Positions 889 to 32,888 of a stretch of DNA of 32,888 nt are shown piece by piece. The stretch is from an uncultured Thermoleophilia bacterium. Its GTDB lineage: Bacteria; Actinomycetota; Thermoleophilia; UBA2241. The stretch covers positions 1 to 32,888 of the forward strand of contig CAIYOD010000054.1 of NCBI GenBank assembly GCA_903927755.1. The letters run 5' to 3'. Under the pieces are notes generated by a model, which had not been told where the DNA came from, did no database searches, and saw nothing but the letters and a program-made list of their open reading frames with translations. Each line of letters opens with the position of its first letter. The stretch's first letter is position 1. The position numbers and the translations under genes were made by a program.

Positions 889-996
889 GCGCGGCCTCCA
901 CGGACCTCGGGATCGGCGGTCTTACGAAGAGCGGATCGGCGTGCCGCGAACCTCGCGGCCCGCGGCGGCGTTAATGTGGACGTAATGTCCAGCGGG

Positions 997-1002
997 TATC
1001 GT
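997..1002 (+). promoter_or_regulatory. Candidate -10 element (TATCGT) just before rseP
   Basis: TATCGT fits the TAnnnT actinobacterial -10 pattern and ends 8 nt before the rseP ATG, so the transcript would be nearly leaderless. The only SD-like sequence (GGGAG, 1003-1007) lies just 3 nt from the ATG, too close to be a good ribosome site. No convincing -35 is visible. This is a weak call. Confidence 0.25.
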
Positions 1003-1010
1003 GGGAGCAT

Positions 1011-2207: not shown

Positions 2208-2230
2208 AGGTGCGCCGCCGCCGCGTGCCG

Positions 2231-2236
2231 TAGGAT
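2231..2236 (+). promoter_or_regulatory. Candidate leaderless-type -10 (TAGGAT) before the epimerase
   Basis: TAGGAT matches TAnnnT and ends 6 nt before the ATG at 2243, the geometry of leaderless actinobacterial transcripts. The same bases contain AGGA, which could instead be a Shine-Dalgarno at 7 nt spacing, so the two readings cannot be separated by eye. Confidence 0.25.
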
Positions 2237-2242
2237 TGGCGC

Positions 2243-5063: not shown

Positions 5064-5402
5064 GGGAAGCAGGGCCGGACAGGGCCGGGCGGCGCGGCAG
5101 TGCTGCCCGGCCCTGTCCGGCGTACGGGGCCGGGCCGGTGACGGCGCGGTCGCCGGCCGTCCCCCGCCGGCCCCAGACAAAGGGCAGGGTACCTCAGGCA
5201 GGATGAGTACGCGGCCTCATGTGGGCGGACCCCCGGCTCCCGATGGAGTACTCAGACTCTCCGTGGGCTTGCTCAGGACTCGCGCCCGAGCCTGAACGGC
5301 GTGGCACACGCCGCGTCCGGGCAGGGTCGCAGGCGGGACTCGTGGAGGGTCCTCGCCGGCGCGAACGCAGGGGCTGCGCCGGAACCAGGGGTAGGAGGTT
5401 TC
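5064..5402. other. Non-coding gap before the giant surface-protein gene
   Basis: This 339 nt gap holds a strong hairpin at 5074-5121 and a GC-rich stretch with no convincing promoter, known riboswitch or small gene. The giant ORF frame is open upstream to a GTG at 5301, but the strong ribosome site at 5394-5398 argues that translation begins at 5403, leaving about 280 nt as a likely 5' leader plus promoter. Confidence 0.5.
5074..5121 (+). terminator. Perfect 17-bp hairpin after tiny gene 2
   Basis: Arms 5074-5090 and 5105-5121 are exact reverse complements. The inner 14 nt can pair further (GCGC with GTGC, one wobble), leaving a GGCA tetraloop, so the full stem is about 22 bp. It starts 11 nt after the stop codon at 5063 and lacks a T-tract. 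It is very probably a transcription terminator. Confidence 0.7.
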
Positions 5403-14400: not shown

Positions 14401-17400
14401 TTCTGTATGCGGCGGCGGGCTACACCAACCCGGCGACCATCGCCGGCGACGTCCAGATGGTGGACGCGTCGTCGGTCGGGCACGCGCTCACGTTCGACGT
14501 GAGGAATGGAGGCTCGATCCTCACGACTGGGCACATCCTGGGGACGAAGGCCGCCTGCACGCTGACCATGACGGGCAACGGGCTGCTGGAGCTCGGCAAC
14601 GGCGCCGCCTGGTCGGGCGACAACACGTGGAGCGGCGACACGAGCATCACGTCCGGTTGGATCACGGTCCGCCGGCCGGGCGCACTCTCGTCGCTGAGCG
14701 GCCGCGTGCACGTCGCGGCCGACGCCGGGGTGGACTACGAGCTGAACGCGGCCACGCCGCACGCCGTGTCGGACGCCACCTGGACAGGCTCCGGCAACCT
14801 CCGGGCACTCTACGCGAGCGACCTGCAGCTGACTGCCGACTCGTCCGGGTTCACGGGCACGCTGGACGGCATGTTCGGCGGCCAGATCGGCGTTCTCGAC
14901 AAGGCCGGCGGCAACGCCTGGACGCACAACGGCGGCGGGTTCTACGGGCACGGCACGCTCGGCAGCCTCAACATGGGCTGGCAGGGCACGCTGAGTCCGG
15001 GCGACGCCGCCTACAAGGTCGCGACGCTCAGCGGGGCGGGCGACGCCGTGCTCGGGTGGGGCACGTACACCGTCGACGTCAAGGACGCGACCGGTGAGGC
15101 CGGCGCCGGCTACGACACCTTCGCCGCCGCCGGCTCTCACGGCATCTACGTGAACGACTTCGCCGACGAGGGCCGGATGCTGACCATCGCGCTGCGGTCC
15201 TCCGACGGCAGCGCCGCGGCCGAGGCCGTCAACTTCGACCCGGCCAAGACCTGCCGCTGGCACATCGCCTCGGCGACCAACGGCGTGATCAACTGGTTCG
15301 ACCGCGCCGTCTACACCATCGACGCTGCCGCCTTCACCAACGACCTCGACGGCGGGAGCTTCGCGCTCGGTCTGTCCAACAGCGGCAAGTCGTTGGACGT
15401 CGTGTTCACGCCGCGTCCGTCCGCCACGTTCACGTGGGACGGCGGCGGCGCGGACGACAACTGGAGCACCGCCGCCAACTGGGTCGGCGACAAGGCGCCG
15501 CGCGACGGCGACAGCCTCGTGTTCACCGGCGCGACGCGGCAGACGCCGGTCAACGACACGCTCACCACCATCGGGTCCGTGGCCGTCACCACCACCGGCT
15601 TCGACGTCAAGGGTGCGGCGCTCTCCATCACCGGCGGTATGAGCTCCGACGTGGGCACCGGTACGACGACGTGGGAGATCCCGCTCACGCTCGGCGCCAA
15701 CATCCAGGTCACGTCCACGCTGGGCGGCCACTTCACCTTCACAGGTGCCGTGTCGCTCGGCGAGGGCGAGGACGCGAAGATCCTGACGACCGACGGCGCC
15801 GGCCAGATCGAGTTCGACGGCGCCCTCTCCGGCGGCTCGGCGGCGACCTACGGCATCATCAAGATGAGCACTGGGCCGCTGGTCCTGAAGGCCGACAACA
15901 CCTGGCAGGGCAAGCTGTACATCACGGGCGGCTCCGTCAGCGCGTACAAGCCTGGATCCCTGCCGGCGGGCGTGCCCGTGGAGTTCGTGGGCGGCGGCGA
16001 AGTCGCCGCCTACCTCGGCGCCGGCGTCAGCGGCACCTGGGACAACGCGTTCACCGGCCCCGGCACGATCAATGTCCACACTGGGTCGCTCACCCTGACG
16101 GGCGATTCGTCGGCCTACACGGGCCTCTCCTACGATCGCAGCGAGCTGACGGTGAACGGCAAGCTCGCCGGCGCTCTGGGTGCCTACGGGCCGCTGCGCG
16201 GCGAAGGTCGCGTCGGCGGCACGGCCGTCGAGGGCCAGGGCCGGGTCAACATCATCAACGGCGGGGTGCTGCAGCCGGGCGCCGCCGACTACGACGTCGG
16301 TACGCTCGAGACGCGCGGCTGGACCTACCTGGCCGGGCGCACGGGCGGCGACAGCGGCTCGTACGTGGTCGACGTCTGCGACGCGAGCGGCTCGGCGGGC
16401 ACAGGCTACGACCGCCTGCAGGCCGTCGGCCTGGGTAACGTCACGGTCGATGCCGTTCCAGCGCCCTTCGTCATCAAGCTGCGGTCGTCCGACGGGACCA
16501 AGTCGGCCGACACTGCGAACTTCGACAACAGCAAGACCTACCGCTGGCACGTCGCCGACCAGGAGTCGGGGACGGTCCAGGGCTTCGCCGCCGGCAGGGT
16601 GACGGTGGATGCCTCCGCCTTCACCAACGCGCTGGCCGGCGGCACGTTCGGCGTCGAGCTTTCAGCAGACAGCAAGTCGCTCGACGTCGTCTTCACGCCG
16701 TGCGCCGACTTCACGACCGGACCGACGGTCGGCGACGGCGGCAGCGAGTTCGCCAAGACCTCCAAGCAGACCGTGGCGTGGGAGATGGACGCCGCGCCGC
16801 CGGCCGGAGGTGTCTTCAAGGTCGTCGCCGACGACCCGGACTCGGCGACCAACGTCCTGCTCGGGACTGTCGACGCCTCGAGTGAGACCAAGTACAGCTA
16901 CGACTGGACGATCGCGCAGGGACCGTCCACGGGCTGGCACGTCACCGTCCAGCTCTGGTCCGGCAGCGGCGACTCGGCGGTCCAGTACCGCACCAAGGAC
17001 AGCCAGAGCTTCGACATCGTCCCGGCCGAGTACACCATCAAGCCGAGCGTCGTCGGCACTCCCGCCCACGGCACGATCAGCCCGGCAACCGACCAGACGG
17101 TCGCGTACAAGGCCACCCCGAAGTTCGCCTTCCAGCCCGAGACCGGCTACCACGTGAAAGAGGTCAAGGTCGACGGCTCGCTCGTCACGATGACCGGCGA
17201 GAACGAGTACACCTTCCCGGCCGTCAAGGCCGACCACACCATCTCGGTGGAGTTCGCCGTCGACACGTTCACGATCACCCCGAGCGTGGTCGGCGCCACG
17301 CCGCACGGCTCCATCACGCCGGACACCTCCCAAACAGTCGACTACGGCGCCACGCCGAAGTTCGCGTTCGACGCCGACGACGACTACCACGTGAAGACCG

Positions 17401-18983: not shown

Positions 18984-19378
18984 AAGACGGGCGGCCGGAG
19001 GGCGCGGCCGCCGCCCAGAGGCCGGGCGGGTTCACCTACCCCGTCCCGCCCGGCCTCGATGCCTCGAAGCGCCATGGGAGAACCCCGGCCCGGCCGCGGT
19101 AGAGGCCGCGCGGACCGCGGGCGCGTCCGTCCTGCTCACGGAGGACGCGCGGCTGCTTCGGGCCGCGACGGCGCCGGGCGAGGGCCTGAGCGCCGTCGAT
19201 CCTTTCTCGATCTGACCGCAAGGCCATCCCGGGAGTCTCGCCGCGAGCCGGCTCCGCTTCGCCGCCGCCCAAGCGGGTACAAACCAGTGGTACAGCGACG
19301 ATCGGGGGCCCGACGAGGGTCCCGGCCATGGGGATGCGCGCCATGCCTGGCGAGGGGGCGCGGAAACGGAGGGATCGT
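18984..19378. other. Gap between giant gene and NHL gene, with a possible gene remnant
   Basis: This 395 nt gap contains the hairpin at 19018-19057. A + strand reading frame running up to a stop at 19213-19215 has strongly GC-biased third positions and reads protein-like (for example AARTAGASVLLTEDARLL), but no plausible start or ribosome site was found. It could be the 3' remnant of a lost gene or chance in GC-rich DNA. The last 50 nt before 19379 are duplicated before the second NHL gene. Confidence 0.4.
19018..19057 (+). terminator. Perfect 13-bp hairpin after the giant gene
   Basis: Arms 19018-19030 and 19045-19057 are exact reverse complements (GAGGCCGGGCGGG and its complement) with a 14 nt loop. 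The hairpin lies 35 nt after the stop codon and has no T-tract. It is the likely terminator of the 13.6 kb gene. Confidence 0.7.
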
Positions 19379-20611
19379 ATGGACGCTCGTACACTCATCG
19401 ACTCGCGACCGCGGCTCGCGCTCGTGACCGCGACGGCGCTGCTCCTGCTGACGCTTGTCGCCGTCCTGCTCGCCTTCGCGGCGCCGGCCGACGCCGCCTA
19501 CACGTACTCGTACAAGTTCGGCGGCCCGGGCGCCGGCGACGGGCAGTTCAACGGGCCGGTGGGCCTGGCCGTCGCCCAGGACGGCAGGGTCTACGCCACC
19601 GACGCCGGCAACGCGCGCGTCCAGGTCTTCGCCGCCGACGGTACCTTCCAGTCCAAGTGGGGCTCGCCGGGTACGGGGCCCTCCCTCTTCGGGCTGCCGT
19701 GGGGCATCACGCTGGGGCCCGACGGGTCCATCTACGTCGCCGACACGGGCAACAGCTACGTCGAGCAGTTCGACGCCGCCGGCGCCTACCTGAGGACGTG
19801 GGGCAGCGCCGGCCCCGGCGCCGGCCAGTTCAACGGCCTCCGCGGCATCGCCGCCAGCCGGGCCGGGGACGTCTTCACCACCGAGCTCGGCACGTCGCGC
19901 GTGCAGAAGTTCTCGTCGACCGGCGCGTTCGCCCTCGCGTGGGGCTCGACGGGCTTCGAGAACGGGCAGTTCGGCGTGCCCATCGCCTGCGCCGCCGACG
20001 CGCTCGGCAACGTGTACGTGCTCGACATCGGCCGCGCCCGCGTGCAGAAGTTCTCCAGCTCCGGCGCCTTCGTCACCGGCTGGAGCGGCGCCGGCCAGGC
20101 TCCGGCTCAGTTGATGGGCCCGATGAGCATCGCCGTGGACGCCAACGGCGACGTCTACGTCGCGGACACCGGCAACGACCGAGTGCAGAAGTTCACCAGC
20201 GACGGGTACTGGGTCACCAGCATCGGCAGCAACGGCGTCGGCGACGGCCAGTTCGAGGCCCCCTTGGCGCTCGCCGTCGCGCCGGACTACCGCTTGTACG
20301 TGGGCGACGGGAACAAGAACAACGTCCAGGTCTTCACCGACCCGACTGCCGGCCTGCCGGTGATCGCCACCGTCTCGCCGATCTCCGGCAAGCGCAAGTC
20401 CGTGGTCACGATCACGGGTACCGCGTTCGGCCAGATCCGGGGCGCCGGCTACGTGAAGTTCGGCTCCAAGAAGGTGACGAGCTACACGTCGTGGAGCTCG
20501 ACCACCATCGTCTGCAAGGTGCCGAAGACCGCGGCCTACGGCAAGGTCAAGGTCCGGGTCGTGACGCCGGGCGGCACCAGCGCCGCTAAGAGGTTCACGG
20601 TCACGAGGTAA
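19379..20611 (+). CDS. Secreted NHL-repeat protein with C-terminal IPT/TIG domain, copy 1
   Basis: This is a 410-residue exported protein. The ATG at 19379 has GGAGGG (19368-19373) 5 nt upstream. An earlier in-frame ATG at 19328 would put 17 extra residues before the signal and is less likely. Residues 1-38 form a signal peptide (basic start, long Leu/Ala core, APADAA cleavage region). About six NHL-type repeats follow (VYVADTGNDRVQKF and similar), probably forming a beta-propeller. From about residue 330 there is an IPT/TIG immunoglobulin-like domain with SGKRKSVVTITG and VKFGSKKVTSY. Such proteins are usually extracellular binding or scaffold proteins, and the ligand is unknown. It is followed by a nearly identical-length paralogue 120 nt downstream. 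Confidence 0.92.
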   Translation: MDARTLIDSRPRLALVTATALLLLTLVAVLLAFAAPADAAYTYSYKFGGPGAGDGQFNGPVGLAVAQDGRVYATDAGNARVQVFAADGTFQSKWGSPGTGPSLFGLPWGITLGPDGSIYVADTGNSYVEQFDAAGAYLRTWGSAGPGAGQFNGLRGIAASRAGDVFTTELGTSRVQKFSSTGAFALAWGSTGFENGQFGVPIACAADALGNVYVLDIGRARVQKFSSSGAFVTGWSGAGQAPAQLMGPMSIAVDANGDVYVADTGNDRVQKFTSDGYWVTSIGSNGVGDGQFEAPLALAVAPDYRLYVGDGNKNNVQVFTDPTAGLPVIATVSPISGKRKSVVTITGTAFGQIRGAGYVKFGSKKVTSYTSWSSTTIVCKVPKTAAYGKVKVRVVTPGGTSAAKRFTVTR

Positions 20612-20646: not shown

Positions 20647-20731
20647 GGACGGAAGCTGACCGCCGGCGAGGGACGCGGCCAGGGGGATGCGCGCCATGCC
20701 TGACGAAGGGGCGCGGAAACGGAGGGATCGT

Positions 20732-21964
20732 ATGGACGCTCGTGCACTCATCGACTCGCGACCGCGGCTTGCGCTCGCGACCGCGACGACCCTGCTCTCG
20801 CTGGCGCTGTTCGCCGTCCTGCTCGCCTTTGCTGCGCCGGCCGATGCCGCCTACACCTACTCCTTCAAGTTCGGCGCCCCGGGCGCCGGAGACGGCCAGT
20901 TCACCTACCCGTCCGGCCTGGCCATCGGTCAGGACGGTCGCGTGTACGTCACCGACCCCGGCAATCCGCGCGTGCAGGTCTTCGCCGCCGACGGGACCTA
21001 CCTCTCGAAGTGGGGAGCGGGGGGCTCGGGCCCCTCGCTGTTCTCCGCGCCCTGGGCTGTCGCGACGGCGCCCGACGGATCCGTCTACGTCTCCGACATC
21101 GGCAACAACTACGTCGAGCAGTTCGACGCCGCCGGCGCATACCTGAGGATGTGGGGCAGCCCCGGCGCCGGCGCCGGCCAGTTCTCGAGCGCCTACGGGA
21201 TCTCGGTCGACGGCGCCGGCAGCGTCTACACGGCGGAGATCGCCAATCCGCGCGTGCAGCGGTTCTCGTCCACCGGGTCGTTCCTCAGCCTGTGGGGCTC
21301 GATGGGCGATGAGAACGGGCAGTTCAACGCGCCGTGGGCCTGCGCCGCCGACGCGCTCGGCAACGTGTACGTGCTCGACATCGCGCTGGCCCGCGTGCAG
21401 AAGTTCTCGAGCACGGGCGCGTTCATCGTCGGCTGGGGCGGCCAGGGTCCGGCCCCGGCGCAGTTCAGCTCGCCGATGGGCCTCGCCGTCGACCCCGACG
21501 GCAACGTGTACGTCGCGGACGTCGGCAACAACCGCGTGCAGAAGTTCACCAGCAGCGGCGTCTGGGTCACGAGCATCGGCGCCCCGGGCCCCGGTGACGG
21601 CCAGTTCGAGGCTGCGGGGGCTCTCGCCGTCGATCCGAGCTACCGGGTGTACGTGGCCGACTTCGCCAAGGACGCCATCCAGGTCTTCACCGACCCGACC
21701 GCCGGCCTGCCGGTGATCGCCACCGTCACGCCGACCTCCGGCAAGCGCAAGGCCAAGGTGACGATCACAGGCGCAGTGTTCGGTCAGGTGCGGGGCGCCG
21801 GCTACGTGAAGTTCGGCTCCAAGAAGGTGACGAGCTACACGTCGTGGAGCTCGACCAGCATCGTCTGCAAGGTGCCGAAGACCGCGGCCTACGGCAAGGT
21901 CAAGGTCCGGGTCGTAACGCCGGGAGGCACCAGCTCTGCCAAGCGGTTCACGATCACGAGGTAG
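20732..21964 (+). CDS. Secreted NHL-repeat protein with C-terminal IPT/TIG domain, copy 2
   Basis: This paralogue is exactly 410 residues long, like its upstream neighbour. The ATG at 20732 is preceded by the same GGAGGG ribosome site (20721-20726). The signal peptide (residues 1-38, ending APADAA), six NHL-type repeats (VYVSDIGNNYVEQF, VYVADVGNNRVQKF) and C-terminal IPT/TIG domain are in the same order. The propeller part differs at many positions from copy 1, while the ends are almost identical, so the copies may bind different ligands or be kept alike at the ends by gene conversion. It lies just upstream of a sugar-nucleotide cassette but in what looks like a separate unit. Confidence 0.92.
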   Translation: MDARALIDSRPRLALATATTLLSLALFAVLLAFAAPADAAYTYSFKFGAPGAGDGQFTYPSGLAIGQDGRVYVTDPGNPRVQVFAADGTYLSKWGAGGSGPSLFSAPWAVATAPDGSVYVSDIGNNYVEQFDAAGAYLRMWGSPGAGAGQFSSAYGISVDGAGSVYTAEIANPRVQRFSSTGSFLSLWGSMGDENGQFNAPWACAADALGNVYVLDIALARVQKFSSTGAFIVGWGGQGPAPAQFSSPMGLAVDPDGNVYVADVGNNRVQKFTSSGVWVTSIGAPGPGDGQFEAAGALAVDPSYRVYVADFAKDAIQVFTDPTAGLPVIATVTPTSGKRKAKVTITGAVFGQVRGAGYVKFGSKKVTSYTSWSSTSIVCKVPKTAAYGKVKVRVVTPGGTSSAKRFTITR

Positions 21965-22011: not shown

Positions 22012-22069
22012 CGGTCCGACGTCCGCCGACGGGCGGGGGAGACCGACATCCGACAGCGAGGTGGGCAGC

Positions 22070-23098
22070 ATGTTTGAGGGCCGGACGCTTCTGATCACCG
22101 GCGGCACGGGCACGTTCGGCAACGCGGTGCTCCGCTGCATGGCAGACAGGGGGCTGGGCGAGATCCGGATCTTCAGTCGCGACGAGAAGAAGCAGCACGA
22201 CATGCGGATCGAGTACGCCGACCCGCGGATCAAGTTCTACATCGGCGACGTGCGCGACCCGGACAGCCTGCGCGACGCGCTCGAAGGCGTGGACTTCGTC
22301 TTCCACGCGGCCGCCCTCAAGCAGATCCCCTCGTGCGAGTTCTATCCGCTGCAGGCGCTCATGACGAACGCCCTGGGCACGGAGAACGTGATGAACGCCG
22401 CCCAGGACGCCGGCGTGCAGCGCATGATCGTGCTGTCCACCGACAAGGCGGCGTATCCCATCAACGCCATGGGCATCTCGAAGGCCATGATGGAGCGGCT
22501 CGCCGGCGCCAAGAGCCGCGTGGCCTCGTCCCGGGGCCTGACCATCTGCATCACCCGCTACGGCAACGTCATGGGCAGCCGTGGCTCGGTGATCCCGCTG
22601 TTCGCCGAGCAGATCCGCTCCGGCGGACCGCTCACCGTCACCGACCCGCAGATGACGCGCTTCATGATGACGGTCGAGGACGCCGTGGAGCTCGTCCTCT
22701 TCGCCTTTGAGCACGGCAGCCCCGGCGAGCTCTTCGTCCAGAAGGCGCCGGCCGCCACCATCGAGACCCTGGTGGCCGCCATGAAGCGCCTCTACGGCGG
22801 CGACAGCCCCGTGCGCATCGTGGGGTCGCGGCACGGGGAGAAGCTCTACGAGACGCTGCTGACGCGCGAGGAGATGCTCCGCGCCGAGGACATGGGCGAC
22901 TACTTCAGGGTGGTGCCCGACGACCGCGACCTCAACTACGACCTCTACTTCACGCAGGGCGTCGCGGACGCCGGCCGCGTCGACGACTACCACTCGCACA
23001 ACACGACCCGGCTCGACGTGGACGGCACCTGCGAGATCCTCGAGAGGGTGGAGGGAGTCCGCGTCGACCTGGGCCTGCCGCCGCTCGGGGCGGCCTGA
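22070..23098 (+). CDS. capE: CapE-type UDP-GlcNAc 4,6-dehydratase/5-epimerase
   Basis: This is a cytoplasmic SDR enzyme that, in the CapE/WbjB family, converts UDP-GlcNAc to a 4-keto-6-deoxy sugar with inversion at C5, the first step towards UDP-N-acetyl-L-fucosamine. ATG 22070 is chosen over GTG 22061 because GAGGTG (22058-22063) is then a correctly spaced ribosome site. The product has 342 residues. The NAD motif LLITGGTGTFG is N-terminal, followed by IFSRDEKKQHDMR. The usual catalytic Tyr of YxxxK is replaced by Met134 (M-G-I-S-K, Lys138), which is characteristic of CapE/WbjB-like enzymes as I recall them. STDKAAYPINAMG and RYGNVMGSRGS are family blocks. Its stop overlaps the next start (TGATG), so it is the first gene of a coupled three-gene operon. 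Confidence 0.93.
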   Translation: MFEGRTLLITGGTGTFGNAVLRCMADRGLGEIRIFSRDEKKQHDMRIEYADPRIKFYIGDVRDPDSLRDALEGVDFVFHAAALKQIPSCEFYPLQALMTNALGTENVMNAAQDAGVQRMIVLSTDKAAYPINAMGISKAMMERLAGAKSRVASSRGLTICITRYGNVMGSRGSVIPLFAEQIRSGGPLTVTDPQMTRFMMTVEDAVELVLFAFEHGSPGELFVQKAPAATIETLVAAMKRLYGGDSPVRIVGSRHGEKLYETLLTREEMLRAEDMGDYFRVVPDDRDLNYDLYFTQGVADAGRVDDYHSHNTTRLDVDGTCEILERVEGVRVDLGLPPLGAA

Positions 23099-24228
23099 TG
23101 CGGCGCGTCCTCGTGACGGGGGCCCGGGGCTTCATCGGGCGCAACCTGATGACCGCCCTGACGCGCCGGGACGACCTCGAGGTCGAGGGGTTCGACGTCG
23201 GCGACCCCCTCGGCGGCCTCACCGCGGCGCTGGCGGACGCCGAGGTCGTCTACCATCTCGCCGGCGTCAACCGGCCCGAGGACCCCGGGGAGTTCGAGAC
23301 CGGCAACGCCGGCTTCACCGGCGAGCTCTGCGGCCTCATGACCGCGGCCGGCGTCCGGCCCACGGTCGTCTTCGCGTCGTCGATGCAGGCCGAGCTGGAC
23401 AACCCCTACGGCGCCAGCAAGCTGGCGGCCGAGGGTGTGCTGGAGGACTGGGCGCGCTCGGGTGGCGGCGCCGTCGCGATCTTCCGCCTGCCCAACGTGT
23501 TCGGCAAGTGGGGGCGGCCCGAGTACAACTCCGTGACCGCCACCTTCTGCTACAACACGGCCCACGGGCTGCCCCTGCGGGTGGACGACCCTTCGTCGCC
23601 GCTGCGCCTCGTGTACGTGGGCGACGTCGTGGCGGCGTTCGTCGCGCTGCTGGACGTCCCCGTGACCGGGGTCGAGCGGCCCGCGGTGAGTCCCGTCATC
23701 GACACGACGGTGGGGGAGCTGGCGGAGCGCATCCGGACGCTGCACGCGCTGCAGCACGCGGCGGACGCGCCCGACCTCTCGAGCCACTTCGGTCGGGCGC
23801 TGCACAGCACCTACCTCTCCTACCTGGAGCCGGAGGATCTGAGCTTCCCCTTCGCCCTGCACAGCGACGAGCGCGGCGACCTGGCGGAGCTGGTGCGGCA
23901 GCCGGGGGCGGGGCAGATCTTCTTCTCGCGCACGCACCCCGGCGTCACGCGCGGCAACCACTACCACGACACCAAGGTGGAGCGCTTCATCGTCCTCGCC
24001 GGAGAGGGCGTCGTGAGGCTGCGGCGGGTGGACTGCGACGAGGTGGAGGAGTACGCCGTGAGCGGCGCCGCTCCCCGGGCGGTCATCATCCCGCCCGGCA
24101 CGACGCACAGCATCGAGAACGTGGGGAGCGACGAGATGCTCACGCTGTTCTGGGCGGACGAGGTGTTCGATCCTGACCGCCCCGACACGTACTTCGAGCC
24201 CGTGCTGCGCGAGGGAGGGGAAAGATGA
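23098..24228 (+). CDS. capF: CapF-type bifunctional epimerase/reductase with cupin domain
   Basis: This is the second enzyme of UDP-N-acetyl-L-fucosamine synthesis. In the CapF/WbjC family an SDR domain reduces the 4-keto group and a C-terminal cupin catalyses C3 epimerisation. The protein has 376 residues, normal for the family. N-terminal VTGARGFIGRNL is the cofactor motif, and Tyr104/Lys108 (PYGASK) is the catalytic pair. From about residue 245 the cupin starts (SFPFALHSDERGDLAEL). The metal ligand region is His288-Tyr-His290 (NHYHDTK), followed by VIIPPGTTHSIENVG. Start and stop codons overlap both neighbours (TGATG at 23096, ATGA at 24225), so expression is translationally coupled. Confidence 0.94.
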   Translation: MRRVLVTGARGFIGRNLMTALTRRDDLEVEGFDVGDPLGGLTAALADAEVVYHLAGVNRPEDPGEFETGNAGFTGELCGLMTAAGVRPTVVFASSMQAELDNPYGASKLAAEGVLEDWARSGGGAVAIFRLPNVFGKWGRPEYNSVTATFCYNTAHGLPLRVDDPSSPLRLVYVGDVVAAFVALLDVPVTGVERPAVSPVIDTTVGELAERIRTLHALQHAADAPDLSSHFGRALHSTYLSYLEPEDLSFPFALHSDERGDLAELVRQPGAGQIFFSRTHPGVTRGNHYHDTKVERFIVLAGEGVVRLRRVDCDEVEEYAVSGAAPRAVIIPPGTTHSIENVGSDEMLTLFWADEVFDPDRPDTYFEPVLREGGER

Positions 24229-25346
24229 AGGTCGCCACGATCCTGGGTACCCGTCCGGAGATCATCCGGCTCTCGCGGGTGATGGCCGCGCTGGACCGAC
24301 ACCTGGAGCACGTGCTGATCCACACCGGGCAGAACTACGACTACGAGCTCAACCAGGTGTTCTTCGAGGATCTCGGGCTGCGGCCGCCCGACAAGTACCT
24401 GGAGGCGGCCGGCCAGACCGCTGCCGAGACGATCGGCAACGTCATCGCTCGTGCCGACGCGGCGCTGCGTGAGGTCGAGCCCGATGCGGTGGTCATCCTC
24501 GGCGATACCAACAGCTGCCTCGCCGCGATCGCCGCCAAGCGCCTGCGCATCCCGGTGTTCCACATGGAGGCCGGCAACCGCTGCTTCGACGAGCGCGTGC
24601 CGGAGGAGATCAACCGCCGGATGGTGGACCACATCGCGGACGTCAACCTGCCGTACAGCGATATCTCCCGGGAGTACCTGCTCGCCGAGGGGCTGCCCGC
24701 CGACCGCGTGATCAAGACGGGCAGCCCGATGTTCGAGGTGCTGAGCCACTACAGCGACAAGATCGAGGCGTCGCCGGTCCTCGACGACCTCGGCCTGACG
24801 CCCGACGGCTACTTCGTGGTCAGCGTGCACCGCGAGGAGAACGTCGACGACCCGCGGCAGTTCGCGTTGTACGTCCAGATGCTGCGGGAGCTGGCGGCGG
24901 CGCACGGACTCCCCGTCGTGGTGACGACGCACCCCAGGACGCGCAAGCGCCTGGACGCGCTCACCGACCCCTTGCCGGCGCTGGTGCGTCTGCTCAAGCC
25001 CCTCGGCTTCACCGACTACGTGCATCTGCAGGAGCGGGCCCGCGCCGTCCTTTCTGACTCGGGGACGATCAGCGAGGAGGCGTCCATCAGGAATCTGAGG
25101 GCGCTGAACGTGCGCCAGGCGCACGAGCGCCCCGAGGCGATGGAAGAGGCGGCCGTCATGCTGACCGGCCTGGAGTGGCCGCAGATCGCGGAGGGCCTTC
25201 GCATCCTCGAGACCCAGCCGCGTGGCCCGGAGCTGCTGCTGCGCCTGGTCGCCGACTACTCGGTGCCCAACGTCTCCGAGAAGGTCGTGCGGCTGATCGT
25301 CAGCTACACGCCGTACGTGCGCCGGGTCGTCTGGAGACAGTACTAG
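24225..25346 (+). CDS. capG: CapG-type UDP-N-acetylglucosamine 2-epimerase family enzyme
   Basis: This is the third enzyme of the cassette. CapG/WbjD-type 2-epimerases convert the UDP-N-acetyl-L-pneumosamine-type product to UDP-N-acetyl-L-fucosamine. The protein has 373 residues. Family motifs are GTRPEIIRLSRV at the N-terminus, HTGQNYDYELNQVFFEDL, the HMEAGNRCFDERVPEEINR region, and SDSGTISEEASIRN with NVRQAHERPEAMEEA near residues 280-310. The AHERPE block is closer to CapG-like members than to plain WecB. It overlaps capF by 4 nt. No glycosyltransferase, flippase or polymerase follows: the next genes are convergent and unrelated, so the sugar must be used by enzymes encoded elsewhere. Confidence 0.93.
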   Translation: MKVATILGTRPEIIRLSRVMAALDRHLEHVLIHTGQNYDYELNQVFFEDLGLRPPDKYLEAAGQTAAETIGNVIARADAALREVEPDAVVILGDTNSCLAAIAAKRLRIPVFHMEAGNRCFDERVPEEINRRMVDHIADVNLPYSDISREYLLAEGLPADRVIKTGSPMFEVLSHYSDKIEASPVLDDLGLTPDGYFVVSVHREENVDDPRQFALYVQMLRELAAAHGLPVVVTTHPRTRKRLDALTDPLPALVRLLKPLGFTDYVHLQERARAVLSDSGTISEEASIRNLRALNVRQAHERPEAMEEAAVMLTGLEWPQIAEGLRILETQPRGPELLLRLVADYSVPNVSEKVVRLIVSYTPYVRRVVWRQY

Positions 25347-26094: not shown

Positions 26095-27930
26095 TCAGCG
26101 CTCGCCTGTGTAGGCCCGCGCCTGCACCTCATACATCCGAGCGTAGCGGCCGCCGAGCGCGATCAGCTCGTCGTGCGTGCCGCTCTCGACGATCCGGCCT
26201 TCGCTCAGGATGTGGATGCGGTCGGCGCTGCGCACGGTGCTGAAGCGGTGGCTGATGAGCACCACCGCGCGGCCCTCGGCGAGTTCGCGGATGTGCTCGA
26301 AGACGCTCCACTCCGACTCGGGGTCGAGCGCGCTGGTGGGCTCGTCGAGCACCAGGATCTGCGCGTCGCGCACGAAGGCGCGGGCGAGCGCGACCTTCTG
26401 CCACTCACCCACGCTGAGCTCCTCGCCGTCGTCGAACCACTTGCCCAGCGGCGTGTCGTAGCCCTTGCGGAGGCCGCCGATGACGCCGTCGGCGCCGGCG
26501 TCGCGGGCGGCGGCTTCCACCGCCGCCTCCGTCTCCGGCGCGCCCGCCGTCAGCTCCACGTTGCCCACGCGGATGTTCTCGCGCGCCGTGAACTGGTACT
26601 GGGAGAAGTCCTGGAAGATGACGCTCATCTCGCGGCGCAGGGCGACGACGTCGTAGGCGCCCAGCTCGGCGCCGTCGAGCGTGATGCTGCCGGCGGTGGG
26701 GTCGTAGAGCCGGCAGAGCAGCTTGACCAGCGTGGTCTTGCCGGAGCCGTTGGCGCCGACCAGCGCGGCGACCTCCCCGGGCCGGATCTCGAGGTCGATG
26801 CCCGCGAGCGCCGTGCGCTCGGTGTCGGGGTAGGCGAAGTCGACGCCGGTGAAGCGGATGCCCTCGCGCATCGGCCGCGGGACGGGCGCCGGCTGCGCCG
26901 GCGCGGTCACCCGCGGCTCCAGCTCCATGAACTCGTGGTAGTAGGTGAGGAAGAGGTTGTCCTCGTAGAGCCCCGCCATGCCCTGCAGGACGCTCTGAAG
27001 GCTGCTCAGGCCCGTCTGGAAGGCCTGGTAGTACATGACCATGGACCCGAGGCTGATGGCGCCGTAGATGGTCTGCCAGGCGATGTAGGCGAAGGTGCCG
27101 AAGGTGGCGAGGACGGCGACGACGCCGCTGAGGAAGTCCCACAGGGAGCGCCGCCGGGCGATGCCGATGCGCTCGCCGCGCAGCACGGTGCGCAGGTCGC
27201 GGAACATGGCGCGGAAGAGCTCGCCCAGGCCGAACAGGCGGATCTCCTTGGCGTGCGGCCCGCCGGTGAGCAGCCAGTGGGCGTACCAGGCCTGGCGCTC
27301 GGAGCTCGTGCGGTCGCGCTGCCAGTGGTACATCACCTTGGAGTAGCGCATCCGCACCCAGGCGCCGGGGATCGCTGCGAGCACGACGATGAGCCCGATG
27401 CTCCAGTGGAGGGTGAAGAGCAGGCCGGCCATGGCGATCATGGAGATCGCGCTCTGGCCGGTGGTCAGCAGGTCGTTCACGATCTTGGTGGGGCGCGAGG
27501 GCGCTTCGTTCTGCGCCCGCTGCAGCGTGTCGTAGTAGGCGGGGTCCTCGTAGTACTCGAGGTCGACGGCGATGGACTGGGCGTGGATGAGGTCGCTGAC
27601 GTGGTCGGTCACCGTCTGGCCGAGCGCCTCCGAGGTGAGCGCGCTCAGCGAGCGGAGCAGCGCCGCCGCGAGGCCCACCGCCGCCGCGATGCCGATGTAC
27701 ACGGCGGCGGTGCGGAACGCGGCGGCGTGGTCCTGCTCCGTCACGCCCTGGGTGACGGCGTCGACGATCAGCTTCATCAGGTAGACGGCGAGCAGCGGGA
27801 CGATGCCCTGGAGGACGGCGAGCGCGATGTTGAGAGCCGTCCAGCCCGGCGCCGCGCGCCAGACGAGGCGCACGGCGTCCATCAGGCGCAGCGCGTCGCT
27901 GAGCTGCGGTCTGCGTGGCTGGTCGGTCAC
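26095..27930 (-). CDS. ABC exporter, fused membrane and ATPase domains (half-transporter)
   Basis: This protein exports a substrate across the cytoplasmic membrane as a homodimer. The open frame extends far upstream, but GTG 27930 has AAGGAG (27942-27937) 6 nt before it and gives the normal N-terminus TDQPRRPQLSDALRL. The length is 611 residues. The membrane domain with six predicted spans covers about residues 20-320. The ATPase domain has Walker A GANGSGKTT at 392-400, a divergent signature LSVGEWQ at 505-511 (usually LSGGQ), Walker B ILVLDEP with Asp529/Glu530, and the H-loop His561. There is no N-terminal C39 peptidase domain, so it would not remove a leader itself. It is divergent from the peptide-maturation genes that start 238 nt away and is the obvious candidate to export their product. 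Confidence 0.9.
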   Translation of the reverse strand: MTDQPRRPQLSDALRLMDAVRLVWRAAPGWTALNIALAVLQGIVPLLAVYLMKLIVDAVTQGVTEQDHAAAFRTAAVYIGIAAAVGLAAALLRSLSALTSEALGQTVTDHVSDLIHAQSIAVDLEYYEDPAYYDTLQRAQNEAPSRPTKIVNDLLTTGQSAISMIAMAGLLFTLHWSIGLIVVLAAIPGAWVRMRYSKVMYHWQRDRTSSERQAWYAHWLLTGGPHAKEIRLFGLGELFRAMFRDLRTVLRGERIGIARRRSLWDFLSGVVAVLATFGTFAYIAWQTIYGAISLGSMVMYYQAFQTGLSSLQSVLQGMAGLYEDNLFLTYYHEFMELEPRVTAPAQPAPVPRPMREGIRFTGVDFAYPDTERTALAGIDLEIRPGEVAALVGANGSGKTTLVKLLCRLYDPTAGSITLDGAELGAYDVVALRREMSVIFQDFSQYQFTARENIRVGNVELTAGAPETEAAVEAAARDAGADGVIGGLRKGYDTPLGKWFDDGEELSVGEWQKVALARAFVRDAQILVLDEPTSALDPESEWSVFEHIRELAEGRAVVLISHRFSTVRSADRIHILSEGRIVESGTHDELIALGGRYARMYEVQARAYTGER

Positions 27931-28101: not shown

Positions 28102-28168
28102 TCGCCCTGACTCCACGATCCACCAGCGTCGGTGACGGGTGAGCCATGAGACGTCAAGGGGGATGAAG

Positions 28169-28348
28169 ATGCAGACCAGGCCCTGGGAGGTTCCACGGCT
28201 GATCGTGCTCGGCCGCGGCACACCCGAGGAGGCCGTGCTGACGGCGTGCAAGACCGCCGGCGTGCAGGGGCTCTCCCCGAACAACGTGTACGGCCTCTGC
28301 TGGACCACGGTCGAGTGCGCGCACTGCACGATCTGGGCTTCGTCGTGA
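28169..28348 (+). CDS. RiPP precursor peptide A (59 aa, four Cys)
   Basis: This is the putative substrate of the adjacent radical SAM enzyme. In-frame starts exist at GTG 28139 and ATG 28163 and 28169; AAGGGGG (28156-28162) is correctly spaced (6 nt) only for 28169. The leader part carries L-[IV]-x-L-x-R followed by EEAVL-x2-CK. Cys residues are at 27, 44, 50 and 53, a C-x16-C-x5-C-x2-C framework. The peptide ends CTIWASS. A second ORF at 30575-30781 has the same leader block, the same first and last Cys spacings and the same type of tail, which is the main evidence that both are genuine precursors. There is no signal peptide. It sits 15 nt before the radical SAM gene. The site of leader removal is unknown. 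Confidence 0.85.
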   Translation: MQTRPWEVPRLIVLGRGTPEEAVLTACKTAGVQGLSPNNVYGLCWTTVECAHCTIWASS

Positions 28349-28363
28349 CGACGAGCCGCGTGT

Positions 28364-30511
28364 GTGAGTGACCTGACGTCGATCGTGTCGGAGCTGCGCC
28401 GCCCGCCCCGCCTGCCCCTCGAGGCGTCCGTCGACCTCACCTACCGCTGTTCCAACGCCTGCCGGCACTGCTGGCTCGTGACGCCCGACACCCCCGCCGA
28501 GCGCGCCGCGGAGCTCACCACCGGCGAGTGGCGCGAGGTCGTGGACCAGGCCCGCTCGCTCGGCACGCGCCGCTGGTCGATCTCCGGCGGCGAGCCGCTG
28601 CTGCGCGAGGACTTCGCCGAGCTCTTCGACCACATCACCCGCAAGGCGATCGGCTACTCGCTCAACACCAACGGCGCGCTGATCACGCCGCAGATCGCGA
28701 AGCTGCTGACCCGCAGAGGCAGCAAGATGATCGCCCTGTACGGCGCGACCGCCGAGGTGCACGACGACGTCACTCGCACGCCCGGCTCCTTCGACGCCAC
28801 CATGGAGGGGTTTGCGCGGCTGCGCGAGGCCGGCGCCGGCTTCACCGTGCAGGTCGTCCCGATGCGCGCCAACTGGCACGAGTGGGAGGCGATGAAGGCG
28901 CTCGCGGCGTCGCTCAGCCCGCACTGGCGCGTCGGCGCAGCGTGGTTGTACCTGAGCGCCTGCGGCGACGCGGCTCGCAACGAGGAGATCGCCCGGCAGC
29001 GCCTGGATCCGGCGGATGTGATCGCCCTCGACGAGCCGATCCCGGCGGACGAGAGCGCGGCCGGGTCGGACGGCGAGGAGCCGGCAGCAGGGGCCGCGCA
29101 CCCGCGTCCCGCGGGCGGCGACGATCGCGTGTACGCGGCGTGCATCGCCGGCCGTCGCGACCTCCACATAGACCCGTACGGGCAGGTCGCGCACTGCAGC
29201 TTCATCAAGGACCCGGCGCTGCGCTTCTCGCTGCGGGGTCCCGGCGGCGTCGCGCCGGGCGCGCTCGAGCGCATCTGGGAGCAGGAGTTGCCGGCCGTGG
29301 CCGACGGTGTCTGCGGCGGGCAGGAGTATCTCGAAGGATGCGCCGTCTGCGACGTTCGCGACGACTGCCGCTGGTGCGGCGTGTACGGCTACCTCGAGCA
29401 CCGCCGGCACGGCGCCGGGGTCGACTACCTGTGCGAGGTGGCCAAGGAGGCGCGGCGCTTCAAGGACGAGTGGCGCCGCGATCACCGCCGCACCTTCCAG
29501 ATCGGCGGGATGACGGTGCAGGTCGGCGCGGACCGGCCCGTCGCCGCCGACACCTTCTCCGCCAAGTTCCGGGACTTCGAGGCGCCGCCCGCGGAGGGCT
29601 GCGGCGCCGATGGTCTGCCCGTCATCCACATCCGCCACCACTTCGGCCTGCCGGACCTGCACGGCCGGGACCTCGGCGCGCAGACCTACCGCAAGCCGCC
29701 CTGGGCCATCTTCCGCCGGGGCTCGTCGTGGATCTACCTCGGCATCTCGCCGTCCGACGACGGCGAGGGAGTGCCGACGGACCTGCACCGCGTGGCCACC
29801 TTCAACGACGACCACACGCGAGCGCGCGTCTACAACGACGACGCGCGCGTCGACTCGTGGGTCAAGGGCGGGCTCGCCTCGGTGACCATGTTCCCGACCG
29901 ACCAGATCCTGCTGGCGCGCGTGCTCGCCGACCGCGACGGGCTGTTTCTGCATTCCGGCGCGGTGATCCTCGACGGCGCCGGCCTGTGCTTCATCGGGCA
30001 CTCCGAGGCCGGGAAGTCGACGACCATGGACCTGCTCTGCGCACGTCTCGGCGACCGCGTCGAGGTCCTGTGCGACGACCGCAACGTGGTGCGCTGGTGG
30101 CCGGATGGGCCGCCGCCGGTGCCGTCACAGGTCGCCGGCCCGGATGCCGCCGACGTCGCCGCCGGGGCGGGCGGCGACGAGGCTGCGCCCTCGCCGCCCG
30201 GCTTCTGGGTGCACGGCACGTGGAGCCACGGCACCGTGCCGCTCGTCTCCGCTTCGCAGGCGCCGCTCCGGGCGCTCGTCTTCCTGCGGCAGGACGAGTG
30301 CAACGAGATCGTGCGGCTCACCGACCGCAAGGACGTCTCCTCGCGGATCCTCGCCTGCATCATCCGCCCCTTCGTCACCGCCGACTGGTGGGAGAAGACG
30401 TTCGACGTCGTCGAGCGGCTCGTCGCCGAGGTCCCGGCCTATGAGATGCGCTTCGACAAGAGCGGCGCCGTGGTGCCGCAGATCGAGGCGCTTGCAGCAG
30501 CGAAGCGGTAG
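28364..30511 (+). CDS. Radical SAM/SPASM maturase fused to HPr-kinase-like domain
   Basis: This is a 715-residue fusion. Residues 1-385 are a radical SAM/SPASM peptide maturase: Cys29, Cys33 and Cys36 (CxxxCxxC) bind the SAM cluster, and SISGGEPLLREDF is the SAM-binding GGEP motif. The SPASM part has C-x12-G-x4-C (CIAGRRDL to VAHC), then Cx2Cx5Cx2C (CAVCDVRDDCRWC) and a final Cys for auxiliary clusters. Residues about 390-715 resemble the HPr kinase/PEP carboxykinase-type P-loop fold: FLHSGAVIL, then P-loop GHSEAGKST at 545-553 and acidic Asp571/Asp572 (VLCDDRN). HprK-like proteins in some lasso peptide clusters phosphorylate a C-terminal Ser; here the neighbouring precursors both end in Ser. 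GTG 28364 lacks a clear SD and is probably coupled to precursor A. Kinase activity is inferred. Confidence 0.88.
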   Translation: MSDLTSIVSELRRPPRLPLEASVDLTYRCSNACRHCWLVTPDTPAERAAELTTGEWREVVDQARSLGTRRWSISGGEPLLREDFAELFDHITRKAIGYSLNTNGALITPQIAKLLTRRGSKMIALYGATAEVHDDVTRTPGSFDATMEGFARLREAGAGFTVQVVPMRANWHEWEAMKALAASLSPHWRVGAAWLYLSACGDAARNEEIARQRLDPADVIALDEPIPADESAAGSDGEEPAAGAAHPRPAGGDDRVYAACIAGRRDLHIDPYGQVAHCSFIKDPALRFSLRGPGGVAPGALERIWEQELPAVADGVCGGQEYLEGCAVCDVRDDCRWCGVYGYLEHRRHGAGVDYLCEVAKEARRFKDEWRRDHRRTFQIGGMTVQVGADRPVAADTFSAKFRDFEAPPAEGCGADGLPVIHIRHHFGLPDLHGRDLGAQTYRKPPWAIFRRGSSWIYLGISPSDDGEGVPTDLHRVATFNDDHTRARVYNDDARVDSWVKGGLASVTMFPTDQILLARVLADRDGLFLHSGAVILDGAGLCFIGHSEAGKSTTMDLLCARLGDRVEVLCDDRNVVRWWPDGPPPVPSQVAGPDAADVAAGAGGDEAAPSPPGFWVHGTWSHGTVPLVSASQAPLRALVFLRQDECNEIVRLTDRKDVSSRILACIIRPFVTADWWEKTFDVVERLVAEVPAYEMRFDKSGAVVPQIEALAAAKR

Positions 30512-30574: not shown

Positions 30575-30781
30575 GTGAGACGCGAGGACTCAAAGGCGCC
30601 GGTTCGGCGCCGGGAGCGCCCGACGCTCGTCACGCTCGTGCGAAGCTCCTCCGAGGAGGCCGTGCTGGGCGGCTGCAAGCACGAGGCGCACCCCGAAGGC
30701 TTCCCGCACTTCAACCATCACCAGTGCGCGGGGTTTCTGATCGCGCCGTGCATCCTGTGCACCATCCTCGGGACGTCGTGA
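30575..30781 (+). CDS. RiPP precursor peptide B (68 aa, four Cys, His-rich core)
   Basis: This is the second putative precursor. ATG 30557 opens the frame, but GTG 30575 has GGAGG (30564-30568) exactly 6 nt upstream and is preferred. A basic N-terminus precedes L-V-x-L-x-R and EEAVL-x2-CK, matching precursor A. Cys residues are at 34, 51, 59 and 62 (C-x16-C-x7-C-x2-C), and the peptide ends CTILGTS. Between the first two Cys there are five His (36, 39, 45, 48, 49), absent from precursor A. It lies 63 nt after the first maturase gene and 19 nt before the second, so each precursor precedes its own radical SAM gene. There is no signal peptide. The nature of the modification cannot be told from sequence. 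Confidence 0.85.
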   Translation: MRREDSKAPVRRRERPTLVTLVRSSSEEAVLGGCKHEAHPEGFPHFNHHQCAGFLIAPCILCTILGTS

Positions 30782-30800: not shown

Positions 30801-31973
30801 GTGAGCGACTTCGTCCGCCGCACCACGCGCCTCGAGCGGCCGATCGGTTCGCGCCTCGGCCGGCTCGACATCGAGCTCACCGAGCGCTGCGACAACGACT
30901 GCATCCACTGCTGCATCAACCTGCCGGCGGGGGACCGTGAGGCTCGCGCCCGCGAGCTGACCACGGCGCAGGTCGAGGGGATCCTCGACCAGGCCGCCGA
31001 GCTTGGCTGCCTGCAGGTGCGCTACACCGGCGGCGAGCCGCTGCTGCGGCCCGACTTCGAGGAGCTCTACCTCCATGCACGGCGTCTGGGCATCAAGGTG
31101 CTCATCTTCACCAACGCGCGGCGGATCACGCCGGAGCTCGCCGATCTGCTTGCGCGCGTGCCGCCGCTGGTCACCGCCGAGGTGACCGTGTACGGCATGC
31201 ATGCGGAGTCCTACGAGGCCGTCTCGCGCGTGCCCGGGTCCTACTCGCAGTTTCGCCGCGGCGTCGACCTGCTGCTGGACCGCGGTGTGCCCTTCGTGGT
31301 CAAAGGCGCCCTCCTGCCGGCCAACCGCGGCGAGGTGGAAGAGTTCGAGGCCTGGGCGGCCACGATCCCCTGGATGGACAAGCCGCCCAGCTACGCGATG
31401 ACGTTCGACCTGCGCAACCGCCGCGACGACGAGCGCAAGAACGAGCTGATCCGCTCGCTCAGGCTCCCGCCGGACGAGGCCGTCGCGATGCTCACGCGGC
31501 GCCCCGAGGAGTATCGCCGGGAGATGACCGAGTTCGCCGGCAGGTTCATGGGTCCGCAGGGAGACGTGCTCTTCGCCTGCGGCGCCGGGCACGGCGTTAG
31601 CGTGGACGCGTACGGGCGCGCGCAGCCGTGCATGGGCGTGCGCGCACCGGAGCTCACCGTCGACCTGATCCGCGCGTGCGCTGCGGGCGGCGCCGACGGC
31701 GGAGGAGCTACGCTCGCCGCCGCCCTCGAAGCGTTCGCCGCCCTGCGTGAGCTGCGGGCGACGAACCCCGAGTACCTGCGCCGTTGCGCGCGCTGCTTCC
31801 TCAAAGGACTCTGCGAGCAGTGCCCGGCCAAGTCCTGGGCGGAGCACGGCAGGCTGGATACCCCGGTGGAGTACTTGTGCGCCGTCGCCCACGCCCAGGC
31901 GCGCTGGCTGGGCTGGCTCGGCGCGGACGAGTACGCCTGGGAGGTCGTGGACTGGCGTGCGCGGGTGACGTGA
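30801..31973 (+). CDS. Radical SAM/SPASM peptide maturase
   Basis: This 390-residue enzyme is expected to install a radical-mediated crosslink or other change in a ribosomal peptide, probably precursor B immediately upstream. Cys30, Cys34 and Cys37 (ERCDNDCIHC) form the SAM cluster motif, and RYTGGEPLLRPDF is the GGEP motif. The SPASM domain has C-x11-G-x4-C (CGAGHGVS to RAQPC), Cx2Cx5Cx2C (CARCFLKGLCEQC) and a last Cys in the VEYLCAVAH segment. GTG 30801 follows precursor B by 19 nt, with no strong SD. It is clearly homologous in layout to the N-terminal half of the fusion protein at 28364 but lacks the kinase-like half. Whether it acts on one or both precursors is unknown. Confidence 0.9.
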   Translation: MSDFVRRTTRLERPIGSRLGRLDIELTERCDNDCIHCCINLPAGDREARARELTTAQVEGILDQAAELGCLQVRYTGGEPLLRPDFEELYLHARRLGIKVLIFTNARRITPELADLLARVPPLVTAEVTVYGMHAESYEAVSRVPGSYSQFRRGVDLLLDRGVPFVVKGALLPANRGEVEEFEAWAATIPWMDKPPSYAMTFDLRNRRDDERKNELIRSLRLPPDEAVAMLTRRPEEYRREMTEFAGRFMGPQGDVLFACGAGHGVSVDAYGRAQPCMGVRAPELTVDLIRACAAGGADGGGATLAAALEAFAALRELRATNPEYLRRCARCFLKGLCEQCPAKSWAEHGRLDTPVEYLCAVAHAQARWLGWLGADEYAWEVVDWRARVT

Positions 31974-32068: not shown

Positions 32069-32374
32069 ATGACGAGTGAAGTGACGCTGCAGACGGTCTG
32101 CGTGCCGTCGGAGGACGTGGTGGCGCGCGAGATCGAGGGCGAGATCATCATCGTCCCGCTGGTGGCCGGCATCGGCGATGCCGACGACGAGCTCTACACG
32201 CTCAACGAGACCGGCAAAGCCATCTGGGACAGGCTCGACGGGCAGCGCTCGCTGGCCGCCGTGGCCGCCGAGGTGGCCGGCGAGTTCGATGCTCCGCCCG
32301 CGGCGATCGAGGCCGACGTGCTCGGCTTCGCCGCCGAGATGGCGCAGCGCGGGATCCTGACGGCCGGGGCGTAG
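32069..32374 (+). CDS. PqqD-like RiPP recognition element protein (101 aa)
   Basis: This is a stand-alone PqqD-family protein of the kind that binds a precursor leader and presents it to the maturase. ATG 32069 has GAGGGG (32056-32061) 7 nt upstream and is preferred over an upstream GTG. The 101 residues show the family pattern: an N-terminal beta region, then DELYTLNETGKAIWDRLDGQRSL (about residues 40-62) with the typical L-N-x-T-x-x-x-I-W core, and a helical end with EVAGEFDAPPAAIEADVLGF. Only one PqqD-like gene is visible for two maturases, so it presumably serves both, consistent with the shared leader motif of the two precursors. The peptidase gene follows 5 nt after its stop. Confidence 0.9.
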   Translation: MTSEVTLQTVCVPSEDVVAREIEGEIIIVPLVAGIGDADDELYTLNETGKAIWDRLDGQRSLAAVAAEVAGEFDAPPAAIEADVLGFAAEMAQRGILTAGA

Positions 32375-32379
32375 GCCCT

Positions 32380-32888
32380 GTGGCCGCGGCCGCGTCCGGA
32401 TCGGCGTACGTCTCCGCCGGCGGGGAGCTGCGCCTCAGTAATCCTGGGCAGCTGGAACTGCTGCGCGGCATGGCCGAACGCGGCGTGCCGTTGCGCACCG
32501 CGGTGCGCGGCTTCAGCATGACGCCCTTCATCCGGGACGGCGACGTGGTCACCATCGAGCCGCTGCGCGCCGACCCCGAGGTCGGCGACGTCGTCGCTCT
32601 CGCCTTCCCGGAGAACGGCCGGATGGCGCTCCACCGCGTGGTGGAACGCCGCGGAGACCGGTGGCTGGTGCGCGGCGACAACTGCCCCCAGCCAGACGGC
32701 GTCTTCGGGCGCGCGGCCTTCGTCGGCCGCGTCGCGCGCGTGGAGCGCGGCGGGCGCGATCTGCATCTCGGCTTGGACCAGCACGCTGCGTGGATCGCGG
32801 CGCTCAGCCGCTGCGGCTGGCTGCCTCGGCTGCGGGCGGCACGGCTGGCGCCGCGGCGGGCGGCCGGCGGAGCGCTGCGCGCGGCGCA
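32380..32888 (+). CDS. S26-type (signal-peptidase-like) serine peptidase, cut by window end
   Basis: The frame is open from GTG 32380, 5 nt after the PqqD-like stop, to the end of the window; 169 residues are visible. The nucleophile motif is GFSMTP with Ser46, followed by IRDGDVVTIEP. ALHRVV with His85 and VRGDN at about residues 95-99 follow. The His in place of the usual Lys is the pattern of ER/SipW-type signal peptidase I enzymes (Ser-His pair). No N-terminal membrane helix is visible, so it may be cytoplasmic. Peptidases of this group occur beside PqqD-like genes in other peptide clusters; removing the leaders of precursors A and B is the inferred role. The C-terminal 40 residues are Arg/Ala-rich and may not be the end of the gene. 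Confidence 0.82.
   Translation, partial: MAAAASGSAYVSAGGELRLSNPGQLELLRGMAERGVPLRTAVRGFSMTPFIRDGDVVTIEPLRADPEVGDVVALAFPENGRMALHRVVERRGDRWLVRGDNCPQPDGVFGRAAFVGRVARVERGGRDLHLGLDQHAAWIAALSRCGWLPRLRAARLAPRRAAGGALRAA

Follow-up and report, generated by a model that had tools for sequence, protein, structure and literature searches.

A radical SAM/SPASM enzyme fused to a predicted PEPCK/HprK-fold peptide kinase in a RiPP cassette with Cys-rich, Ser/Thr-ending precursors

Described systems and their relation to the fusion cassette

Lasso peptide systems, including those of paeninodin and pseudomycoidin, contain HprK-like kinases (PadeK, ThcoK, SyanK, and PsmK) with a His-Lys-Asp-Asp set (PMC9266682), and mutations showed that these four residues are essential in the ThcoK-type enzymes, whose target is a conserved Ser at the C-terminus (PMC9266682). 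The systems for linear polyphosphorylated peptides (LPP) reported in 2026 (PMC13381572) consist of an archaeal-type signal peptidase, a discrete recognition element, an HprK-like kinase, a nucleotidyltransferase, and an MsbA-like exporter. The LPP core set is without a radical SAM enzyme, a term absent from the LPP paper; LPP clusters are found mostly in Bacillota, their leader is YxxPxVLxHQxIxFETxxS, and LppK phosphorylates the internal residue Ser3 (PMC13381572). SynChlorMet systems (ScmC, ScmD, ScmE, and ScmF; TIGR04248-TIGR04251) contain radical SAM/SPASM proteins and a PqqD relative together with ScmC. Finally, the SPASM peptide maturases PqqE, SkfB, SuiB, and CteB have a radical SAM and SPASM fold and act on ribosomal peptides; to our knowledge, none of them carries a kinase domain.

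We analyzed a window of 32,888 nucleotides, an entire contig from a draft genome of 3.5 Mb. Its gene at 28364..30511 (+ strand) encodes a radical SAM/SPASM enzyme that shares the fold of the SPASM maturases and would, like them, act on a ribosomal peptide, joined in one chain to a predicted kinase half, and is a member of a RiPP cassette with an exporter, a PqqD-like protein, a signal peptidase, and further radical SAM enzymes. In common with the lasso-kinase systems, the cassette has a PqqD-type recognition element and a [Y/W]xxPxL leader motif (PMC9266682), some clusters have a nucleotidyltransferase beside the kinase, and the precursors end in Ser or Thr (61/63) where lasso-kinase precursors have a conserved C-terminal Ser. 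Unlike the lasso kinases, the present kinase is fused to a radical SAM/SPASM enzyme, and unlike lasso precursors the present ones are Cys-rich with another leader, in which weak PadeA-family similarity is confined to the beginning. The genes scanned in the related loci L031, L042, and L045 and in the window, whose cluster is truncated by the end of the contig, included no lasso cyclase or B2 protease. Four of the five LPP components are present in the window; the fifth, a PF14907-type nucleotidyltransferase, was found in 15 related loci, including several Thermoleophilia relatives, while the window, cut short by its contig, has none. The present family differs from LPP in its leader (WxxPxLxVLxRxxPEEAVLxxCK) and in having no conserved internal Ser. 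Membership in SynChlorMet was rejected, because bit scores were far below cut-off (ScmC 24-35 of 125, ScmD 25-30 of 100, ScmE/F under 90 of 400); moreover, ScmC, which remotely resembles the kinase half, is a separate protein in SynChlorMet. Four candidate precursors near genuine ScmC genes (L216:11793-11969 +, L217:10729-10947 -, L218:5771-6046 -, and L220:4404-4616 -) have a YxxP leader motif, a Gly/Cys-rich core, and no terminal Ser. We therefore regard this as a probable phospho-radical RiPP family, whose nearest known systems are the paeninodin-type lasso kinases, LPP, and SynChlorMet and which is a full member of none of them.

We think it fairly likely that the two halves share the precursor tail, the kinase half by (poly)phosphorylating its terminal Ser/Thr and the radical half by modifying the Cys stretch next to it. 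No description of a radical SAM-HprK fusion was found in the literature searched, where absence is not proof of novelty, and the kit of fusion and Ser/Thr-ending, Cys-rich peptides in dozens of bacteria and archaea seems to be previously undescribed. In the boldest reading, to which we give about an even chance, this would be the first fusion of a radical SAM enzyme and a peptide kinase whose substrate family is defined. The single chain links two RiPP tailoring chemistries for which we found only separate descriptions. The family also suggests a general role for HprK-like kinases in RiPP tailoring that is not limited to lasso and LPP peptides.

The fusion gene and its two halves

The fusion gene begins with GTG at 28364, stops at 30509-30511, and encodes 715 amino acids with zero internal stops. 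Its GC content at the three codon positions (0.71/0.52/0.95) has the same bias as that of neighboring genes, and by this measure the ORF is a real gene. The radical SAM and SPASM half (residues 16-357; 28409..29434, +) matched Pfam Radical_SAM over residues 25-177 (E 6.7e-20) and contains GGEP (residues 75-78; 28586-28597) as well as the two features that define the radical SAM/SPASM class, CxxxCxxC (C29/C33/C36; 28448-28471) and a seven-Cys SPASM domain (C260, C278, C326, C329, C335, C338, and C357). In an alignment of 40 full-length fusions, C29/C33/C36 were conserved in 39/39 and all seven SPASM Cys in 40/40. The kinase half (residues 376-715; 29489..30508, +) contains His530 (29951-29953), the P-loop GHSEAGKST (residues 545-553; 29996-30022), and the Asp pair D571-D572 (30074-30079). 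Among 61 kinase domains, H530, K551, and D571 were conserved in 61/61 and D572 in 60/61. The near-invariance of the cluster Cys and kinase residues across homologues implies that the motifs of the fusion did not arise by chance. The initial annotation had described an uninterrupted 715-residue frame with CxxxCxxC, GGEP, and SPASM motifs followed by the P-loop and Asp-Asp pair, and its coordinates and motifs proved correct, with no frameshift. A full-length AlphaFold2 model built from homologue alignments (pLDDT 87.8, pTM 0.83) matched structures of BlsE, SkfB, SuiB, PqqE, and CteB and showed residues 354-374 as a continuous helix that links the radical and kinase halves.

Pfam, NCBIfam, and PDB sequence searches of the kinase half were uninformative. 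The C-terminal half had no trusted Pfam match, and residues 389-715 had no match to Pfam HPr kinase/phosphorylase or PEPCK at E<=10. A profile search, as proposed in the initial annotation, found HprK-like RiPP proteins (ScmC and HprK_rel_A/B) as the sole informative relatives, all far below cut-off. Most matches in a PDB search with the profile designated A1 were ABC-transporter P-loops, which we read as P-loop cross-matching, and HprK was matched only at E 0.013. The kinase assignment was consequently made from fold and conserved residues, without a trusted sequence-family match. An AlphaFold2 model of the kinase half, also built from homologue alignments (pLDDT 85.2, pTM 0.85), gave 20 Foldseek matches in the PDB at E<=0.001, of which 19 were PEPCK and one was HPr kinase. 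The probabilities of these matches were high, but the low global TM-scores (about 0.2-0.4 of the query) count against the favored reading, as does a sequence similarity to known kinases near zero. HPr kinase/phosphorylase and PEP carboxykinase share the fold, P-loop (including its Lys), and Asp pair with the kinase half, at about 10% identity in structural alignment and with no HPr substrate suggested.

The conserved H530, K551, D571, and D572 match the lasso-kinase His-Lys-Asp-Asp set in type and order, where the pairing is by order and not by direct alignment. Given this set and the predicted fold, the C-terminal half is probably a PEPCK/HprK-fold peptide kinase, in agreement with the joining of a radical SAM enzyme to an HPr-kinase/PEPCK-like domain in the initial annotation, and the candidate phosphate- and metal-site residues are kept across homologues. 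The weak sequence similarity to known kinases would also fit a degenerate, non-catalytic PEPCK-like scaffold. We regard such a scaffold as very improbable, because the catalytic His, Lys, Asp, and Asp are retained in 60-61 of 61 domains and exceed most of the domain in conservation.

Cassette, precursors, and co-occurrence of leader and kinase

Divergent from the cluster is a gene for an MsbA-like ABC exporter (permease/ATPase; 26095..27930, -; NCBIfam TIGR02203 1.2e-81, below cut-off; Pfam ABC_tran 9.4e-32), whose start near 27930 was placed by inspection in an ORF that is open to 28440. On the other side of the fusion gene are a second radical SAM/SPASM maturase of 390 aa (rSAM2; 30801..31973, +; Pfam Radical_SAM 1.1e-21), a PqqD-like RiPP recognition element (32069..32374, +; Pfam PqqD 1.9e-16), and an archaeal-type signal-peptidase-I-like protease of the S24/S26 type (32380..32888, +; NCBIfam TIGR02228 sigpep_I_arch 2.9e-07, below cut-off; Pfam Peptidase_S24 1.4e-06), which is truncated where the contig stops and is a probable leader peptidase. 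A third radical SAM enzyme (rSAM3) is present in the cassettes of relatives.

Two precursor genes, which the initial annotation did not contain, flank the fusion gene. Precursor peptide A1 (MQTRPWEVPRLIVLGRGTPEEAVLTACK-TAGVQGLSPNNVYGLCWTTVECAHCTIWASS; 28169..28348, +) starts with ATG after AAGGGGG, with an alternative ATG possible at 28163, and precursor peptide A2 ((M)RREDSKAPVRRRERPTLVTLVRSSSEEAVLGGCK-HEAHPEGFPHFNHHQCAGFLIAPCILCTILGTS; 30575..30781, +) starts with GTG after GGAGG. Both have orthologues in the closest relative, L031 (E 1.2e-21 for A1 and 9.9e-18 for A2), and both match a leader-only profile (1.8e-13 and 3.9e-10, respectively) that was used to find the precursor family and that recovers it throughout the loci. 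The last residue of the 63 precursors is Ser in 55 and Thr in 6, compared to an ORF-end background of 10% Ser and 5% Thr, whereas all other positions are <=44% Ser/Thr. Among the exceptions to this rule that were inspected, L044 19853-20095 ends in Ser-Pro, L090 7574-7747 seems to be truncated or to carry a frameshift, and L052 7476-7631 and L180 look like leader matches due to chance. The family has no conserved hydroxyl residue other than the terminal Ser/Thr, and the last Cys lies exactly at position -7, six residues before the end, in 51/63 precursors.

This strict Cx5[S/T] spacing and the tolerance of either Ser or Thr at the end would suit a different chemistry, in which the terminal phosphate is an intermediate that is eliminated and the Cys six residues before the end adds to the resulting dehydro residue, closing a seven-residue C-terminal (methyl)lanthionine ring. 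Such kinase-lyase logic operates in class III/IV lanthipeptides. We consider this pathway unlikely here, since no lyase or lanthionine cyclase was recognized among the genes examined and the products of known HprK-like RiPP kinases retain their phosphate. The main proposal is favored by the PF14907 nucleotidyltransferase beside some clusters, as in the kinase-containing pseudomycoidin and LPP clusters.

The precursor leader and the kinase nearly always occur together, also in genome samples chosen independently of the kinase. Among 249 genomes of the class, 7/8 leader genomes have the kinase family (G012 as a contig-edge fragment), and the single leader genome without it is an 84% complete draft. 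Among 297 genomes from another phylum, drawn without selection, 6/6 credible leader genomes have the kinase, where two of the six (G122 and G124) were known beforehand; a seventh leader match, partial and 15 residues long, was not credible. Together, the nearly invariant His-Lys-Asp-Asp set, the Ser/Thr-ending precursors, and this co-occurrence support the terminal Ser/Thr as the target of the kinase half. Nevertheless, a terminal Ser is not an obligatory target of HprK-like RiPP kinases, since LppK modifies internal Ser3 and ScmC-type clusters have a related domain with peptides that do not end in Ser; the latter, putative peptides suggest that the presence of a kinase of PEPCK/HprK fold is not enough to impose a Ser end. 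The kinase half could then act on another residue or molecule, and the terminal Ser/Thr could be a tag by which the leader protease or the ABC exporter recognizes the peptide. We judge this reading rather unlikely, given that the family has no other conserved hydroxyl residue and that leader and kinase are so seldom apart. No cassette with the same leader, protease, and exporter but without the kinase was found, and hence phosphorylation site and tag are not fully separable.

Five orphan precursors (L181, L183, L185, L192, and L193), on whose retrieved stretches no cassette gene was recognized, all end in Ser. In addition, a distant sister system (L035:8298-8684 +, L036:7145-7345 -, and L038:1612-1812 +) encodes EEVLxxxCK peptides with a Ser end, PqqD, one radical SAM enzyme, and a stand-alone kinase that is about 28% identical.

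Distribution of the fusion, the third core Cys, and a proposed pathway

A kinase-alignment scan of 84,980 species genomes found 60 kinase loci across many phyla and groups, including Methanomicrobiales, Methanothrix, Chlorobi, Chloroflexi, Acidobacteria, Planctomycetota, Myxococcota, Desulfobacterota, and candidate phyla. A Thermoleophilia (Actinomycetota) genome contains the nearest relative of the kinase, and the cassette is also present in Desulfofustis glycolicus DSM 9705 (L085), a named strain available from a culture collection. The count of genomes with the same fusion, which the initial annotation had called for, came to about 44 other loci (about 45 of the 60 scan loci), spread over many phyla of bacteria and also over archaea. 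The remaining loci have the kinase alone, some uncertainly owing to contig ends; two loci on one chromosome (L057 and L099) were not accepted as lacking the radical half, because the apparent gap consists of runs of N. On the kinase tree, the fused or unfused label changes 11 times, at least 3 of which are forced by well-supported branches, implying that fusion or fission occurred repeatedly.

Presence of the radical half goes with an additional Cys in the precursor core. A precursor with three or more core Cys is encoded in 28/29 fused clusters, whereas precursors of kinase-only clusters end in Ser/Thr and have two core Cys in 13/14 (Fisher p 5e-9, a value weakened by relatedness). The third Cys mostly forms a Cys-x2-3-Cys ahead of the tail; it is missing from 7/49 peptides in fused clusters. 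The one kinase-only cluster with three Cys is an archaeal copy (L097:9938-14523) in which the radical half is absent and rSAM2 and rSAM3 are each split over two frames, and this cluster is apparently decaying. On the best tree, 8/9 independent pairs agree with the association and 0 oppose it, which we treat as weaker evidence; only 2 independent pairs lie on well-supported branches, and the test confined to such branches was underpowered. The Cx5[S/T] tail and the link between radical half and third Cys support that part of the sequential action suggested in the initial annotation which places both halves on the same peptide.

The scarcity of contrasts on well-supported branches and the existence of kinase-only clusters, which means that the halves are separable, leave room for a fusion that provides physical co-regulation only, with halves that act independently at different positions and a third-Cys association that stems from ancestry. 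We consider this possible but not likely, because the fusion is retained in about 44 other loci of many phyla and because of the agreement among pairs on the best tree. Phosphorylation of the terminal Ser/Thr by the kinase half together with modification of a nearby extra Cys by the radical half would explain why the two are fused.

We infer each reaction of the favored pathway, its site, and its order from gene content, fold, residue conservation, and precursor patterns. The PqqD-like protein would bind the WxxPxL motif of the leader and present the precursor, as expected from known recognition elements. Like PadeK and ThcoK with lasso precursors, the kinase half would place a phosphate, perhaps several, on the hydroxyl group of the last Ser/Thr, and the radical SAM/SPASM half would modify the Cys-rich tail just upstream. 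The likeliest site of the radical half would be the extra Cys of the Cys-x2-3-Cys-x5-Ser/Thr end, where it could form, for example, a thioether or carbon cross-link. Sactipeptides and ranthipeptides contain such thioethers from Cys to a peptide carbon. The Cys residues that every precursor shares would be the sites of rSAM2 and rSAM3, the signal-peptidase-like protease would cut off the leader, and the ABC exporter would secrete the product, whose phosphate may be further decorated by the nucleotidyltransferase in some clusters. The resulting rule, that the radical half goes with a third Cys and the kinase with a Ser/Thr end, makes both activities directly testable in a family that spans many bacterial phyla and methanogenic archaea and whose substrates and likely modification sites are now named.

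Other genes of the window were also noted. Beside the exporter, FnlA-like, reductase-like, and UDP-GlcNAc 2-epimerase-like genes (22061-25346, +) form a FucNAc-type nucleotide sugar set; capsule loci have been reported to contain LPP clusters (PMC13381572). Tandem paralogues at 19328-20611 and 20687-21964 (+) encode NHL-repeat/TIG-domain proteins, and a 4,560-aa ORF (5301-18983, +) encodes a putative giant surface protein that combines autotransporter-type PATR repeats and a Laminin_G_3 domain with tandem repeats at its C-terminus (GSITPDTSQTVDYG...). At 25-4295 (+), Dxr, a PDZ-containing M50 protease, a sugar epimerase-like gene, and IspG/GcpE follow in succession, and the epimerase-like and GcpE frames overlap.
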